A program made the position numbers and the translations under genes. The notes under the pieces are model-generated. The model was not told the DNA's origin and did not search any database. It saw only the letters and a program-made list of their open reading frames with translations. A stretch of DNA of 64,000 bases, taken from positions 744,001 through 808,000 of the forward strand of contig NZ_CP022242.1 of assembly GCF_003351865.1 (NCBI RefSeq), written 5' to 3'. Of this stretch, positions 24,625-55,035 are shown piece after piece; position 1 is the stretch's first letter, and the number at the start of each line of letters is the position of its first letter. The DNA is from Methanofervidicoccus sp. A16 (GTDB lineage: Archaea > AGJL01 > Methanococci > Methanococcales > Methanococcaceae).

Positions 24625-24775
24625 ATAAGGATAGATAAAGTTTTTTCCTCTTTTATTTAAAAAAGATTAATAATATTATATTTAATAAAAAAAATTATTA
24701 TTATTAAAATTAGAAGAAATTTTATAATATAATAAATTTATTAAACTACTTTAAAAAGAAATGGAAAAGAAACTG

Positions 24776-25481
24776 GGTCCTGTCCACATAAAACAAACAT
24801 CATATATAACAATGTACATAAGATACTATTATGCTAAGAGTAAAAGATATTATAAAGGAATTAAAAATCTTTAAGAGGAACAAAATACCTATAGAAATTA
24901 AAACACTCGCCATTGCAACCTACATTCAGACATCTTCAGTAAGAAGGACTGCCAGAATTCTTTCAGAGATTTATCCAGTCTCAAAAACATCAGTTTGGAA
25001 CTGGATAAATAAGTTTAAAGAAGAATTATCCATTACAACAGAGGAAAGAGAAAGAGATCTAATAGCGATAGATGAAACTGTTGTTAAAGGTGGCGGGAAG
25101 CACTATTACGTTTATTCAGCTGTAGATGTTGAGAGGAATGAATTAATTTTAATGAGAGTCTATACAATAAGGAATCATCTAATTACGAGGTCCTTTGTAA
25201 AGAAAGTACTGAAGTACTGTAGGGGTGAGCCTAAATTCCTTATAGATAAAGCCCCATGGCTAATTAGTGCTCTAAAAAGTCTTAATTTAAACTTTGAACA
25301 TCAGACTTTTGGGCGGGGGAGTTTGATAGAATCGGTGTTTTCTTCTCTGAAGCAGAGGGTAAAGATCTTTTTCTGCTCTATTAATGCTAAAAATCCTGTT
25401 AGAAACTGGAACTTCTTTTGTAGGTTATTTGTTCTGTATTATAATAAACTGAGGTGGTGTTTATGTTAAGTGGACAGGTCC
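24776..25481 (+). mobile_element. Complete IS6-type insertion sequence with 8-bp target duplication
   Basis: The 706-bp element has terminal inverted repeats GGTCCTGTCCAC (left) and GTGGACAGGTCC (right, one mismatch when inverted), followed inward by similar TAAAACAAAC / GTTTATGTTA sequence. AGAAACTG is present at 24768-24775 and again at 25482-25489, an exact 8-bp duplication as expected for the IS6 family. It contains one uninterrupted transposase gene and looks recently inserted and potentially active. Confidence 0.92.
24831..25469 (+). CDS. IS6-family transposase
   Basis: The 212-residue DDE transposase is of normal length for the family. An N-terminal helix-turn-helix region (about residues 28-60, SSVRRTARILSEIYPVSKTSVWNWINKF) is followed by the catalytic domain with Asp81 (IAIDET), Asp139 (LIDKAPW) and Glu167 (LIESVFSSLKQR). 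The Arg/Lys-rich stretch after Glu167 is typical. It catalyses cointegrate-type transposition of the surrounding element. No frameshift or stop interrupts it. Its ends do not resemble those of the MITE-like repeats in the same window, so it is not their obvious driver. Confidence 0.93.
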   Translation: MLRVKDIIKELKIFKRNKIPIEIKTLAIATYIQTSSVRRTARILSEIYPVSKTSVWNWINKFKEELSITTEERERDLIAIDETVVKGGGKHYYVYSAVDVERNELILMRVYTIRNHLITRSFVKKVLKYCRGEPKFLIDKAPWLISALKSLNLNFEHQTFGRGSLIESVFSSLKQRVKIFFCSINAKNPVRNWNFFCRLFVLYYNKLRWCLC

Positions 25482-25718
25482 AGAAACTGAAAACTTAAAT
25501 ACTGGAAGAAATAAATAAAGTTCCCTTAAATACTGCTCCTTGAGTTGTGATTTTACTATTATACTATATAGTTAGAGTTTATAATATCAATAAGGAACTG
25601 TTTTATTTTTTTATTGTGATTACTATCGTTAATTAATATTATCATTATTATTTTTTATTGTTTTTTTTAACTATTTCATAAAATAAGATACAAACACTAA
25701 ACAACAACAGGTGACTCC

Positions 25719-28033: not shown

Positions 28034-28082
28034 TATCTTAGTTCCTATCAAGATTATAATTAGAAGAATAATAAGGACATTA
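28034..28082 (+). repeat. Solitary family B-type end within the DUF4013 pseudogene
   Basis: ATCTTAGTTCCTATCAAGAT at 28036 followed by TATAATTAGAAGAATAATAAG matches the left end of family B. The DUF4013 coding homology stops exactly here, so the element or a deletion starting in it removed the gene's last third. No partner end was found. Confidence 0.5.
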
Positions 28083-28875
28083 CAAAGAAATCCTTTTTTA
28101 ACGAAATTTACCGTTGCTAGTGGGATGTATATTGCAAGTGCTATCAGCACCACCAACATATATACAGAGATAACAGATAGGTCAAATAACCTGTAAGCCC
28201 TCCCAATGTACTAAATAATCCTACTGTTAAGAGTAAAGTAATAGGTAAATACACCACTAGATTTAATATTAACAGTGCAAAAATATACACAACTCCATTT
28301 TTTACGATCTCAGTAAAATTACTCCAATCAGGCAGGGTATCAAGTCTTTTAACAGTGTTTTTTATTACTTCTATACAACCTTAGTTCCCACCAAGTAGTG
28401 ATTAAAGGACAATGAAAACAATCAATATAAAAACTATTAAACATTCTAGGGTCTTTCTAATCACTTAGTTAAGATAGAATATCTCATTCTGAATTCCTGT
28501 ATTAGAAGGTATTCAGAGGACTATTCCTTTTCAATCTTCTTTTTAAAATGCTGTATCTGGGATAATAGAAGTTTTCTGTTTTTTAAATATTATTCTTTAT
28601 TTTTTATTTTTATTAATTTTTATAATTATTTTTATTATTCTTTAAACTATTCTTTTGATGGGAACTAGGGTTTCTATACAGTATCCTACTATGATTACAG
28701 TAAAAATTAGAGTTATTCCAGGAATAAGGATAAGTGAAAGCGGCCCTAAAAGTATTGACAATAGCCAATCTACGACTATATTAAAAAACAACAGTAATCC
28801 TCCAATAAGCACTTTTAACCGATCTGATGTAGCATATTTAAAGGGTTCTACTAAATATTTCTCTATGGAAGACAT
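28083..28875 (-). pseudogene. DUF4013 membrane protein gene, broken by a family A insertion, a frameshift and loss of its end
   Basis: The 5' part (28875 to about 28673) encodes MSSIEKYLVEPFKYATSDR and membrane helices up to GYCIE, matching the intact neighbour at 28933-29751. Reading then enters the inverted repeat of a MITE-like element. Homology resumes immediately beyond it at 28376 with VIKNTVKRLDTLPDWSNFTE and continues to about 28150, where a -1/+1 shift is needed before LAIYIPLATVNFVKKGFL. It ends at a second repeat remnant near 28083. The gene is a dead tandem paralogue; TCTATAC on both sides of the element marks the insertion. Confidence 0.88.
28377..28672 (+). repeat. Family A MITE-like element (copy A3) inserted in a gene
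   Basis: AACCTTAGTTCCCACCAAG and GATGGGAACTAGGGTT bound 296 bp containing the conserved family core (about 28448-28565). TCTATAC occurs directly outside both ends (28370-28376 and 28673-28679) as a 7-bp duplication; the flanking DNA joins in frame to restore a DUF4013 reading frame. This is the clearest evidence here that the family transposes. Confidence 0.9.
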
Positions 28876-28932: not shown

Positions 28933-29751
28933 TTACTGTTCCTTCTCTCTTTCTAGGTAGTACTTGGTTACTGCCCTGTATGACATTATTCCAAATATAA
29001 AAGACATGATAGTATTACACATTATGTAGATCGATATCACTATTATAGAGATAAATATATCCAACATAGGTACAATTATATTGGCAATAGTTTCCAAAAT
29101 AAAGTTAAAAATAAAGTTTATTACAAAATACAACAGTAGTATCAATATATACTCAAAAGATATCTTTTTTAGTACATCGGAAAATTTGAAGAATCCAGAA
29201 AATCCTTTTTTAGCAAAATTTACTGTTGCTAGTGGAACGTATATTTTAAGTGCTATAGACACTACTAACATATATAGGAGTAGTACCAATATATATGCTA
29301 ACAGGGATGTGATTATTGTCCAGAGATCACTATGTCTAAAACTATCTACCGTCGCAATCGCTCCTGTAAAAAATATCCCTATTATTAAAAGTAAAATAGC
29401 AGGTAAATAGGCTAACAATATCAATATAAACAGTGCAACAGTATACAAAACTCCATCTTTTAAGATTTCAATAAAGTTACTCCAGTCAGGTAGTGTATCA
29501 AGTCCTTTAAGGGTGTTTTTTACCACCCCTATGTAGTATCCTGTAATAGCCATAGAGGTTATTATAAAGAATAATAGGCCTATACCTAACGTTAAAATAA
29601 ATGTAGAGAAATTCAATTTTATATACGCTATTAATGATATAGAGATAATAACTATAGGGATACCTAACAATAAAATAACTATTAACACTTTTAACCGATC
29701 TGATGTAGCATATTTAAATGGCTCTATTAGATATTTTTCTAAAAAAGACAA
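28933..29751 (-). CDS. DUF4013 family integral membrane protein
   Basis: The 272-residue protein has about six hydrophobic segments (near residues 20-45, 50-75, 95-125, 140-165, 195-215 and 225-255). The family mark GYYIGVVKNTLKGLDTLPDWSNFIEILKDG follows the second. The family occurs in methanogens and other archaea with unknown function. I place the start at the TTG at 29751: GAGGTGAT lies just upstream, and the resulting MSFLEKYLIEPFKYATSDR aligns from its first residue with the ATG-started broken paralogue next door. The GTG at 29760 belongs to the ribosome-binding site. Tail: YYLEREKEQ. Confidence 0.85.
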   Translation of the reverse strand: MSFLEKYLIEPFKYATSDRLKVLIVILLLGIPIVIISISLIAYIKLNFSTFILTLGIGLLFFIITSMAITGYYIGVVKNTLKGLDTLPDWSNFIEILKDGVLYTVALFILILLAYLPAILLLIIGIFFTGAIATVDSFRHSDLWTIITSLLAYILVLLLYMLVVSIALKIYVPLATVNFAKKGFSGFFKFSDVLKKISFEYILILLLYFVINFIFNFILETIANIIVPMLDIFISIIVISIYIMCNTIMSFIFGIMSYRAVTKYYLEREKEQ

Positions 29752-29822
29752 AAATATCACCTCTTCAATCTTACCGGTTAATTTCTATCTTAACAATAAT
29801 GTGCATATAGTTATTCAAGAAT

Positions 29823-50840: not shown

Positions 50841-53081
50841 ATGTTAATAGAGAGCATCATTTCAGGGAGTAAAAAAGTACTGGAGACAACTAAAGATATC
50901 TTAAAAGACAAAGAAGATAATATAAAAGTAGGCTATCCAGGAACTAACTACAACCTCCCAATTATCTACGGTCTCTTAGGGAGAAAAATTGAGAGTGTTA
51001 AAGACCTAAAAGAGTTAATAAACTCCTTGGAAATTAAAGAGGAACCTACATTGGAGAACGCCCTCGAGGATGGAGTTATAACCCTAATATGTGCAGAGGC
51101 CATAGAGTCCCTTAAATACGCCTTGGAAAAGGAACCTTACAAGCCTCCTTACACAGGTTTTATCCCAGATGAGGTTTTAAGGGATTTGGGAGTGCCGTTG
51201 GTGGAGGGTAAGATTCCTGCCATCCTTGTGGTAGTTGGTAAGGTAGGTGATAAGGAGAAACTGAAGAAACTTATAGAGGATATCCAAAAGAGGAATATAT
51301 TGGGCCTCTTCATCGGCGAGATCGTCCAGGAAATGATATCCTTAGGTATAGAGTTTGGTTTAGATAAACTCCTTGTTCCTGTTGGAAAGGATATCACCTC
51401 TGCCATCCATGCTGCAAACCTTGCAATAAGGGCTCCTTTGATATATGGAGGTATAGAACCTGGTAAAAGTGAGGAGATCGTGGAATACATAAAAAATAGG
51501 GTACCTGCTATTGTAGTGGCTTTAGGACCTTTAGATGATATCGCCCTTGCAGTGGGAGGGGGATGTATTAAGGCAGGGGTTCCAGTGATCACCAACAACG
51601 AGGTACCTGAGATTAAAGGAACTTTAGAATCCTCAGATATTGAGAACATTGTAGAGAATGCCCTAAAGATGAAGGGAATTGAGGTGAAGGTTGCAGAGTA
51701 CGATGTTCCAGTATCTGTAGGTCCAATGAATGAAGGGGAGAGGATAAGGAAACCTGACATGTACGTAGAACTGGCAGGGCCTAAATCCTACGGTTGTGAG
51801 TTAGTTCTGATAAAGAAAGATGGAGAGGATGGAGTAGAGATAGTCGGAGAGGATATAGACAGTGTAGAGGAGGGCAGTACTATGCCCTTTGCCATAGTTG
51901 TAGAGGTGGCGGGAGAAGGCTTAGAGGAGGATATTGCAGGGGTATTGGAGAGGAGAATCCATGAGTTCTTCAACTACATAGAGGGAGTTATGCATCTAAA
52001 CCAAAGGGACAACGTTTGGATAAGGATCAGTAAGGATGCCTTTAACAAGGGACTGAGGTTAAAACACATAGGAGAGGTTATAAGAGTTCTCTTTAAGGAG
52101 CACTTCCCAATAATAGAGAAGTGTCATGTAAAAATAATAACAGATCCTGAGAAGGTTAAAGAGACTGTAGAGATGGCCAGGGAGGTATACAAAAAGAGGG
52201 ATGAGAGGGCGAGATCCCTATCTGAGGAGGATGTAGATGTCTTCTACGGATGTATCATGTGCCAGAGTTTCGCACCTACTCATGTATGTATCATAACTCC
52301 AGATAGGCCGTCCCTCTGTGGAAGTATAAACTACTTCGATGCAAGGGCTGCCGCCAAGATGGATCCAGAGGGCCCTATCTTCGCCGTTGAGAAGGGAAGA
52401 TGTCTAGATAAAAACTTAGGGATATACGAGGGGGTAAATGAGACGGTGCAAAATACCTCGGGAGGTGCTATAGAGGAGTTTGCCCTTCACAGTGCCCTAG
52501 TAAAACCATGTACCTCCTGTGGATGCTTCGAGGCTATAGTGTTCTACATCCCAGAGGTTGACGGTTTCGGTGTAGTACATAGGCACTTCAAGGGGGAGAC
52601 ACCTTATGGAATGAAGTTTTCCGCTATTGCAGGCCAGTGTAGTGGAGGGAAACAGGTGGAGGGGTTTGTAGGTATTGCAATAGAGTATATGAGGTCTCCA
52701 AAGTTTCTCCAGGGAGATGGTGGATGGAACAAGATAGTATGGCTCCCAGCGGAGTTGAAGGAGAGAGTAATAGACGCCATACCTGAGGATCTAAGGGATA
52801 AAATAGCGACAGAGAAGGATGTATCCTCTATAGAGGAACTTCAAAAGTTTTTAACTGAGAGGGGGCATCCTGTAGTGAAGGGTAAGGAGAAGGAAGATAC
52901 TTCTGATGATGTTGTAGAGGAGAGAGAGACAACCACAGAGGAACCTATTGCACCTACACCTTGTGGAATAACAGTTTCGCCGATAAGTCTTATACCACCT
53001 AATACAAAGGTGGTACTAAAGGGGATAGTTCTAAAGGCAAAGGAAATAGTAATACTCCCAGGTCTTAGGGGGCCTAAATAA
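50841..53081 (+). CDS. cdhC: CO dehydrogenase/acetyl-CoA synthase subunit beta (full-length form)
   Basis: The 746-residue protein makes acetyl-CoA from a methyl group, CO and CoA at the A-cluster. The cluster ligands are visible: Cys471, Cys474, Cys483 and Cys493 (GCIMC...VC...LC), and the Cys560-Gly-Cys562 pair (CTSCGC) for the Ni site. The protein has the N-terminal (about 1-300) and middle domains of bacterial AcsB as well, whereas most archaeal CdhC proteins lack the N-terminal domain and are about 460-480 residues. An acidic linker (about 680-705) precedes a C-terminal tail. No other cdh gene is adjacent. Confidence 0.93.
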   Translation: MLIESIISGSKKVLETTKDILKDKEDNIKVGYPGTNYNLPIIYGLLGRKIESVKDLKELINSLEIKEEPTLENALEDGVITLICAEAIESLKYALEKEPYKPPYTGFIPDEVLRDLGVPLVEGKIPAILVVVGKVGDKEKLKKLIEDIQKRNILGLFIGEIVQEMISLGIEFGLDKLLVPVGKDITSAIHAANLAIRAPLIYGGIEPGKSEEIVEYIKNRVPAIVVALGPLDDIALAVGGGCIKAGVPVITNNEVPEIKGTLESSDIENIVENALKMKGIEVKVAEYDVPVSVGPMNEGERIRKPDMYVELAGPKSYGCELVLIKKDGEDGVEIVGEDIDSVEEGSTMPFAIVVEVAGEGLEEDIAGVLERRIHEFFNYIEGVMHLNQRDNVWIRISKDAFNKGLRLKHIGEVIRVLFKEHFPIIEKCHVKIITDPEKVKETVEMAREVYKKRDERARSLSEEDVDVFYGCIMCQSFAPTHVCIITPDRPSLCGSINYFDARAAAKMDPEGPIFAVEKGRCLDKNLGIYEGVNETVQNTSGGAIEEFALHSALVKPCTSCGCFEAIVFYIPEVDGFGVVHRHFKGETPYGMKFSAIAGQCSGGKQVEGFVGIAIEYMRSPKFLQGDGGWNKIVWLPAELKERVIDAIPEDLRDKIATEKDVSSIEELQKFLTERGHPVVKGKEKEDTSDDVVEERETTTEEPIAPTPCGITVSPISLIPPNTKVVLKGIVLKAKEIVILPGLRGPK

Positions 53082-53580
53082 ATTTATTCTTTATTTTTCT
53101 TACATTAATGTTTCTTCTTATTTTTTTCTTATATTTGCTAGTTATAGATATTATAGAAATTAAAAAAATAATTAAAAATATAAATATAGAGATTATAAAA
53201 ATTGAAATAAATTAATGAAAAAAGGAAATAGAATATTAATCTATCTGTATCCCCAATGTTTCCAAAAAACTATAAATAGGGGTGGGGAGTTCTGTTGCAA
53301 TATAAGGAACGTCTAAGAGTTGTAATTAAATGAATATAAATATCAATCCCTGTTGCGAGAAATATTCAGAAAATATGTAGATATTGCATCTATTTTTGTT
53401 TAATACTCTATATTTAAGACAAATTAAGAGTTTTTATTTAACTTATTAATTTATTCGCTATTTTTTATAATTATTTTTATAATAATTATTTTTTATTAAA
53501 AAATTTTTTAATGAGAACTATACTAATATACCTTCTCTAAAAATTCCATTATCATCAAAATATAAAATTAGGTGAAATCT
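53082..53580. other. Spacer between the ACS gene and the PAPS reductase-like gene
   Basis: About 500 bases without a supported gene. A GC-richer part at 53240-53400 (CTATAAATAGGGGTGGGGAG, later AATCCCTGTTGCGAGAAA) contains a TATA-like word and no recognised RNA. TTTTTTAATGAGAACTATA near 53510 faintly recalls the repeat termini. Confidence 0.35.
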
Positions 53581-55035
53581 GTGAAACACTTTCTTGGAAA
53601 GATCCATCTAAGATGGTGTAAATACTGTAATCTCCCAGTGTTGGATAAAACCTGTAACGTATGTAAAAGAGAAACTGTCCAGGTAAAGATAACACCTCCA
53701 GGAGACGTTAGACCTGGGTTTCCAAAGGATATAGAGATGATAAACAACATCTTAAAGGATCAATTTAACGTTCAAGAAGATATATTCAAAAATAGGATAG
53801 TACTGCTGAATAAGACTCCTGGAGTAGACTATATGAAGGAGATTATCTTAGATGGTACAGTCTTCGCTATTCTGAAATATGATGTTGAAAAGAGTAATTG
53901 GACAATACTACCTACTGTAGAGGGGGCACGTAAAATAATAAATGCAGGAGGTTTTAAGAAAATAGTTGGAATTAGAAAAGACGTTGTACCTTACATATTA
54001 GAGAGACATGCCTCAGTTTTAAGGCCTGGAGTGGTGTATTTTTCCCAGGATATTAGGGAAGGAGACGAGGTTATAGTTCTAGTTATGGATGAAAATGAGG
54101 AGGACTTTAAAGACACCCAGGTTTTAGGTGTGGGGAAGGCGAGGATGGGTTATCAGGAGGTGATGAAGAGAGATAAGGGTATGGTAGTTAAAATAAGGCA
54201 TGCTGAAACTCCTAAGGAGGCTACTTATTTAAGAGAAACAGGAGATTTAAAAGAATCTATAGATAAGATGATTCAGGCCAATGAACATGTTATTGAAAAA
54301 TATGAGAAAGAGGCCATAGGGTTTATGAGAAACACTGTAGAGAGGATAAAAAAACCTGTAGTTATAGCATACTCCGGAGGTAAAGACAGTCTCACAGTAC
54401 TACTGTTATCTTTGAAGGCATTTAGAGACAGAGGAATTGAATTTGACGTGATATTTGTAGATACTGGGCTGGAATTACCTGAAACCTTGGAGAACGTAGA
54501 GGAGGTGGAGAAAAGGTACAACCTAGAGATGATCAAGATAGAGTCTGAAGACTTCTGGGAGAAACTTGAGGAGTATGGTCCTCCTGGAAGGGACTATAGG
54601 TGGTGCAGTAAGATATGTAAGATGAAACCTGTTGAGAGATTTATCAGAAGTAGATACAAAGACGGCTGTTTAACCTTTGTAGGTCTTAGAAAGTACGAAT
54701 CTATAAACCGTTCAAAAAAACCACGTATCTGGAAAAGTAAGCATATTAAGGGCCAAATACAGTGTGCTCCAATACTCCACTGGTCTGCTATGCACGTGTG
54801 GCTGTACCTTTTTAAAAATAAAGCACCTTACAATAAAGTTTACCAGTTAGGTTTTGACAGGGTGGGATGTTATATCTGTCCTGCCATGGAACTTGGAGAG
54901 ATAGAGTTGATTAAGAGGTACTACCCTCAACTTTGGGAGAGGTGGGAGAGATATTTAAGGGAGTATGCTAAGAAAAATAACCTAGATGAGGAGTGGGTTA
55001 AAGGAGGTTGGAGATGGAGATATAGGGAGCAGTAA
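53581..55035 (+). CDS. PAPS reductase-like ATP pyrophosphatase with zinc ribbon and PUA domain
   Basis: The 484-residue protein joins four parts: an N-terminal zinc ribbon (Cys13, Cys16, Cys25, Cys28), a middle region, a PUA-type RNA-binding domain (about 130-210: PYILERHASVLRPGVVYFSQDIREGDEVIVL), and a C-terminal PAPS reductase/ATP-PPase domain with the PP-loop SGGKDS at 265-270. Five further cysteines (342, 346, 395, 430, 433) could bind an Fe-S cluster. The layout suggests RNA modification, such as thiolation, more than sulfate assimilation; that is inference. The start is GTG at 53581, behind AGGTGAAATCT. Confidence 0.8.
   Translation: MKHFLGKIHLRWCKYCNLPVLDKTCNVCKRETVQVKITPPGDVRPGFPKDIEMINNILKDQFNVQEDIFKNRIVLLNKTPGVDYMKEIILDGTVFAILKYDVEKSNWTILPTVEGARKIINAGGFKKIVGIRKDVVPYILERHASVLRPGVVYFSQDIREGDEVIVLVMDENEEDFKDTQVLGVGKARMGYQEVMKRDKGMVVKIRHAETPKEATYLRETGDLKESIDKMIQANEHVIEKYEKEAIGFMRNTVERIKKPVVIAYSGGKDSLTVLLLSLKAFRDRGIEFDVIFVDTGLELPETLENVEEVEKRYNLEMIKIESEDFWEKLEEYGPPGRDYRWCSKICKMKPVERFIRSRYKDGCLTFVGLRKYESINRSKKPRIWKSKHIKGQIQCAPILHWSAMHVWLYLFKNKAPYNKVYQLGFDRVGCYICPAMELGEIELIKRYYPQLWERWERYLREYAKKNNLDEEWVKGGWRWRYREQ

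Follow-up and report, generated by a model that had tools for sequence, protein, structure and literature searches.

MITEs are short, non-autonomous transposons. A published family of this kind is MITECca01 of Cardinium cOegib, which is derived from IS982, measures about 240 bp, carries no transposase and is present in 169 copies making up 3.5% of the chromosome; these copies are mostly intergenic and rarely disrupt genes (PMC9769881). In the case of Sulfolobus, the MITEs SM1-SM4 occur in 25-44 copies per family (review PMC10969869). Regarding IS982 itself, its ends follow the pattern AC(N)6T, with TT at positions 15-16 as a consensus trait that is not absolute, and its direct repeats range from 2 to 10 bp; IS982-like elements are on record for Methanotorris formicicus and Methanocaldococcus bathoardescens (PMC7335449).

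The repeat family described here, family A, is like MITECca01 in its IS982-family inverted repeats, its lack of a transposase and its similar copy number. In contrast to family A, whose parent is represented by a decayed remnant only, MITECca01 still has its parent, ISCca4, in intact copies, and the segment it came from can be traced; furthermore, the host of family A is an archaeon, and its copies are about 10% diverged from their consensus. By description, SM1-SM4 resemble family A in being archaeal, multicopy, non-autonomous and bounded by terminal inverted repeats. The IS982-like elements of Methanotorris and Methanocaldococcus have the end core TAGTTCCCATCA in common with family A, but they are about 1 kb long and carry a transposase gene, whereas the element studied here is 294 bp long and non-coding. 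The literature already contains IS982-derived MITEs with a comparable number of copies, and family A is an archaeal case without a surviving parent. No published description of this methanogen repeat family was found in a literature survey of incomplete coverage.

The window, that is, the whole stretch of 64,000 nucleotides that was analysed, covers bases 744001-808000 of a closed chromosome of 1,504,113 bp, and its gene content points to a methanogen. In this window, mfnA lies on the minus strand with two tandem DUF4013 genes, which encode membrane proteins, downstream of it. The upstream gene of the two, at 28933-29760 on the minus strand, is intact and matches DUF4013 (PF13197) with a Pfam E-value of 1.3e-17. 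The second gene is interrupted. Translation and alignment to the paralogue place its 5' part at 28672-28875 (minus strand, ATG start at 28875) and its 3' remnant at 28083-28377 (minus strand), the latter being in frame to about 28206 and frameshifted beyond. In the occupied gene, the frame from this ATG reaches GYCIE and then runs into a stop within the end of the intervening element (ORF 28642-28875).

The initial annotation had read this arrangement as transposition into a coding sequence, and the in silico deletion of the element together with one repeat had been set beforehand as a test. Excision of these 303 bp indeed produced a single continuous frame across the junction, 142 codons long from the ATG at 28875, which reads GYCIEVIKNTVKRLDTLPDWSNF with the junction at GYCIE|VIKNTVK. 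A random joint would keep the frame one third of the time and would not restore residue-exact homology. Here, the match of both gene parts to the paralogue, also part of the earlier description, was borne out with 56% identity over 132 residues and no gap at the junction.

The element itself is a non-coding family A MITE of 294 bp (28378-28671, plus strand, ACCTTAG...CTAGGGT) with full-length relatives genome-wide at 80-88% identity. Its left terminal inverted repeat, ACCTTAGTTCCCACCAA (28378-28394, plus strand), is an exact match to ACCYTARTTCCCAYCAA, and end comparison places the right one, with the reverse complement ACCCTAGTTCCCATCAA, at 28655-28671 on the minus strand. The inverted ends at 28377-28394 and 28655-28672 are complementary in 16 of 18 pairs, which confirms the earlier view of a family A element with inverted repeats splitting the gene. 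Compared with longer copies, the 5' (left) half of the window copy is shorter by about 40-60 bp. No ORF of at least 60 aa was detected inside the element, where only ORF ends enter from the gene flank. The whole-strand foldback of the element gave z=-2.56; a conserved RNA structure was not supported, as the analysis yielded a terminal foldback only, with a covariation term of -0.1 and two pairs with double changes. Promoter and terminator scans stayed at chance level, and in the window neither the tRNA nor the Rfam scan gave a match.

An exact 9-bp direct repeat, TTCTATACA, flanks the element at 28369-28377 (left copy) and 28672-28680 (right copy). TCTATAC, the core of this repeat, lies on both sides as had been noted; the length of 7 bp assigned to the duplication did not hold. 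Symmetric ACC...GGT element ends lead to a repeat of 9 bp, while 7 bp needs ends of the form AACC...GGTT, and for the window copy alone the boundary can slide so that 7, 8 or 9 bp are all compatible. Across the family, statistics of inward-facing end pairs in loci chosen around element copies put the mode at 8 bp for ends of the form ACC...GGT, with 14 pairs observed versus 0.5 expected, and yielded five 9-bp duplications at the same boundary, for which 0.15 were expected. Because the family-wide 8- and 9-bp repeats are far above chance, the duplication is taken as 8-9 bp and not 7.

In the nearest named relative found, Methanothermococcus sp. SCGC AD-155-E23, the syntenic locus (L009) comprises gatA, mfnA and four DUF4013 genes, with order and orientation as in the window, and no family terminal repeat match was detected in it. 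In relatives, the reading frame of ten homologues passes the insertion site without interruption: the pattern GYYI[GE]V[IVA][KR]NT spans the junction in all four units of L009, in homologues from five other members of the genus and in G010. The presence of the element in the orthologue of all relatives, an outcome that the initial annotation had named as speaking against it, was looked at as well, and none of the relatives examined had the site interrupted. Transposition into a coding sequence is thus upheld both by the frame after excision and by the empty site in homologues including the syntenic array. One-to-one orthology of the pseudogene with unit 4 of L009 was also considered, as suggested by BLAST (58% over 93 aa), and was dropped when a tree singled out no unit. 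It could still be argued that the repeat is unrelated and lies between two distinct short genes or gene fragments, no single gene ever having been entered, since the locus is clearly decaying, with a frameshift and a truncation. We consider this hardly credible: the direct repeat is exact, the element ends are intact, and the joined sequence follows the paralogue and the ten homologues residue for residue, all of which speaks for one interrupted gene.

Regarding the family as a whole, the 17-bp ACCYTARTTCCCAYCAA end at no more than one mismatch occurs 348 times in the genome (175 forward and 173 reverse), and a reversed control pattern 0 times. This corresponds to about 170 element-equivalents, which at about 300 bp each amount to an estimated 3% of the chromosome. 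Family A proper gave 40 long matches among those listed, at 74-89% identity. In statistics drawn from stretches chosen around copies, aligned copies measure 264-384 bp with a consensus of about 319 bp, are mostly 83-94% identical to this consensus, and have a median pairwise identity of 83%. The divergence of the copies from the consensus and from each other indicates that the burst is old. A related copy with 81% identity is present in another genus member. Altogether the window element is a MITE: it is short, has terminal inverted repeats and a target-site duplication, encodes no transposase, belongs to many dispersed copies and has ends common to autonomous elements.

Two further observations concern the arrangement of copies. 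At L053, L066, L069, L083, L087, L088 and L089, several element ends, facing inward and outward, lie no more than a few hundred bases apart, which suggests that new insertions took place in or next to older copies. Moreover, one tandem pair of family elements recurs at two distant places, around 903164-903692 (L064) and around 1495564-1496092 (L081), and since the match values are identical, a segmental duplication is suggested.

A search of relatives with the end sequence led to elements of about 1 kb in a Methanocaldococcus-type genome and in another genome with many copies. The ends of these elements read ACC[CTGA]TAGTTCCCATCA, some copies have direct repeats of 7-8 bp, and one copy in the Methanocaldococcus-type genome has TAATTATC on either side. 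The transposase of these elements matches NF033520 (transpos_IS982) with E-values of 1.8e-35 and 3.7e-37; the scores of 122.7 and 128.2 bits are slightly below the curated 130, the ORFs being without the first ~20 model positions. In a related genome (G023), two near-identical IS982 copies of about 987 bp (C1:45002-45988 and 52997-53983; L090 and L091) lie about 8 kb apart, and in both the transposase reading frame is split in two. In the genome studied here, no intact IS982 transposase was found, and all that was seen of IS982 is one degenerate piece at 218135-218338, ending in GAGAACTAGGGT, which equals the family end.

The family ends ACCYTARTT start with 5'-AC and have T at position 9, as in the IS982 pattern, and the family duplications of 8-9 bp fall inside the IS982 range; CA stands at end positions 15-16, where the consensus TT of IS982 is absent. 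Judged by sequence, the family ends are IS982 ends, because they are common to the IS982 elements of relatives and to the decayed fragment, and from this we infer movement by an IS982 transposase in trans. As the genome keeps only this decayed fragment bearing the family end, the element population looks fossil. A simple origin of family A by internal deletion of IS982 was considered and not retained: BLAST showed no IS982-specific similarity inside family A to support it, internal matches being AT-rich stretches.

The mover could also have been a different transposase that is still in the genome, for instance that of an 11-copy IS6-like element nearby. One copy of this insertion sequence (DDE_Tnp_IS240) lies at 24776-25481; its ends are GGTCCTGTCCAC, and it has duplicated 8 bp of its target, AGAAACTG, now at 24768-24775 and 25482-25489. 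Such elements are at hand, are near-identical and make 8-bp duplications as the family does, but their ends, GGTCCTGTCCAC...GTGGACAGGTCC, are unrelated to ACCYTARTTCCCAYCAA, whereas the MITE ends match IS982 elements. Because its ends differ, the IS6-like element was rejected as the mobilising partner, and mobilisation by a resident transposase of another type appears very improbable. Since its copies are 98-100% identical, the IS6-like element appears, unlike the MITEs, to have been recently active. At the right flank of L046, an IS6-like copy directly abuts a MITE end fragment (GTTCCCACCAAAGTAGTAATTAAA); IS6-like elements have therefore landed in MITEs.

The insertion is not the only lesion of the DUF4013 pseudogene. 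A frameshift falls within 28165-28206 (minus strand), where the repeat register changes from 1158 to 1112 and the tblastn frame changes. It lies between paralogue residues ~132 and ~159, and the pseudogene is net 46 nt shorter there. Because unit 4 of the syntenic L009 array is likewise short in this region, the 46-nt difference may partly be paralogue-specific or ordinary divergence. Similarity stops at 28083-28088, about 88 codons before the end of the paralogue. Adjoining this point, at 28035-28074 (plus strand), lies what remains of a truncated element from a related subfamily, namely the first 40 bases of its left end, with 79-88% identity over 42 nt to the corresponding end elsewhere (e.g. 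L087:1338, L055:276, L085:1360). This fits a deletion that took the last ~88 codons of the gene together with the inner part of the neighbouring related element. Both the frameshift and the loss of the 3' end at a second repeat remnant were thus seen as first described; that they followed the insertion could not be retained, since one genome gives no order of insertion, frameshift and deletion.

This bears on whether the insertion caused the loss of the gene. Three independent lesions with nothing ordering them would also agree with a gene that was already frameshifted or truncated when the element arrived. To judge how often genes are hit, 29 copies with exact target-site duplications, a non-random set biased to family A, were taken, their flanks joined and a long frame sought across the junction. 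A joined frame of more than 100 codons was obtained for two of the 29, the window copy and a copy at a GMP-synthase glutaminase-type gene. In the latter (L088:4777-5056), the element sits at the last codons, and since the stop codon is part of the 8-bp duplication, TTAATCTA, the gene is kept whole. Only the window copy therefore splits a gene among the copies tested, as would be expected if insertions into functional genes were selected against; to that extent, this also agrees with an earlier death of the DUF4013 copy. The other family A copies in the window sit between ORFs. Against such an earlier death, the 132 aligned residues flanking the element are open and 56% conserved with the paralogue, so that the frame had decayed little. 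Element divergence versus gene divergence does not separate the two orders. Overall, we consider prior loss of the gene unlikely, albeit a possibility of some weight.

Our preferred explanation, to which we assign a probability of roughly 0.88 as a whole, is that an IS982-type transposase, whose intact gene is now lost, acted in trans on a MITE which inserted at codon ~68 and probably inactivated the DUF4013 gene, since the frame ends within the element's end. In detail, such a transposase would act on the miniature element carrying its terminal repeats, and the element would enter codon ~68 of the second DUF4013 gene in the tandem array. Staggered cutting of the target would duplicate TTCTATACA (9 bp, in a family that usually shows 8 bp), and the frame, ending within the element's end, would leave the gene inactive. 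Besides the insertion, the locus has a frameshift and a probable deletion, which took away the 3' third of the gene and the inner part of the neighbouring related element. Loss of the gene would presumably be tolerated because the paralogue remains.

In conclusion, the element probably helped to kill the DUF4013 copy, in a clean but ordinary case of a known process. The locus is a case, dated by sequence and with a readable empty site, of a MITE that entered a gene of an archaeon, and it links IS982 with a methanogen repeat family that is very abundant and apparently undescribed. At genome scale, it is useful to set the many copies between genes against the only one that hit a gene, and a redundant gene at that. 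More tentatively, and at slightly less than even odds, the large population of IS982-type MITEs in this small archaeal genome may have persisted and diversified into several subfamilies after loss of the transposase, shaping gene loss and local deletions. Of more interest than the single DUF4013 insertion is the expansion across the genome, for which no intact parent is left.
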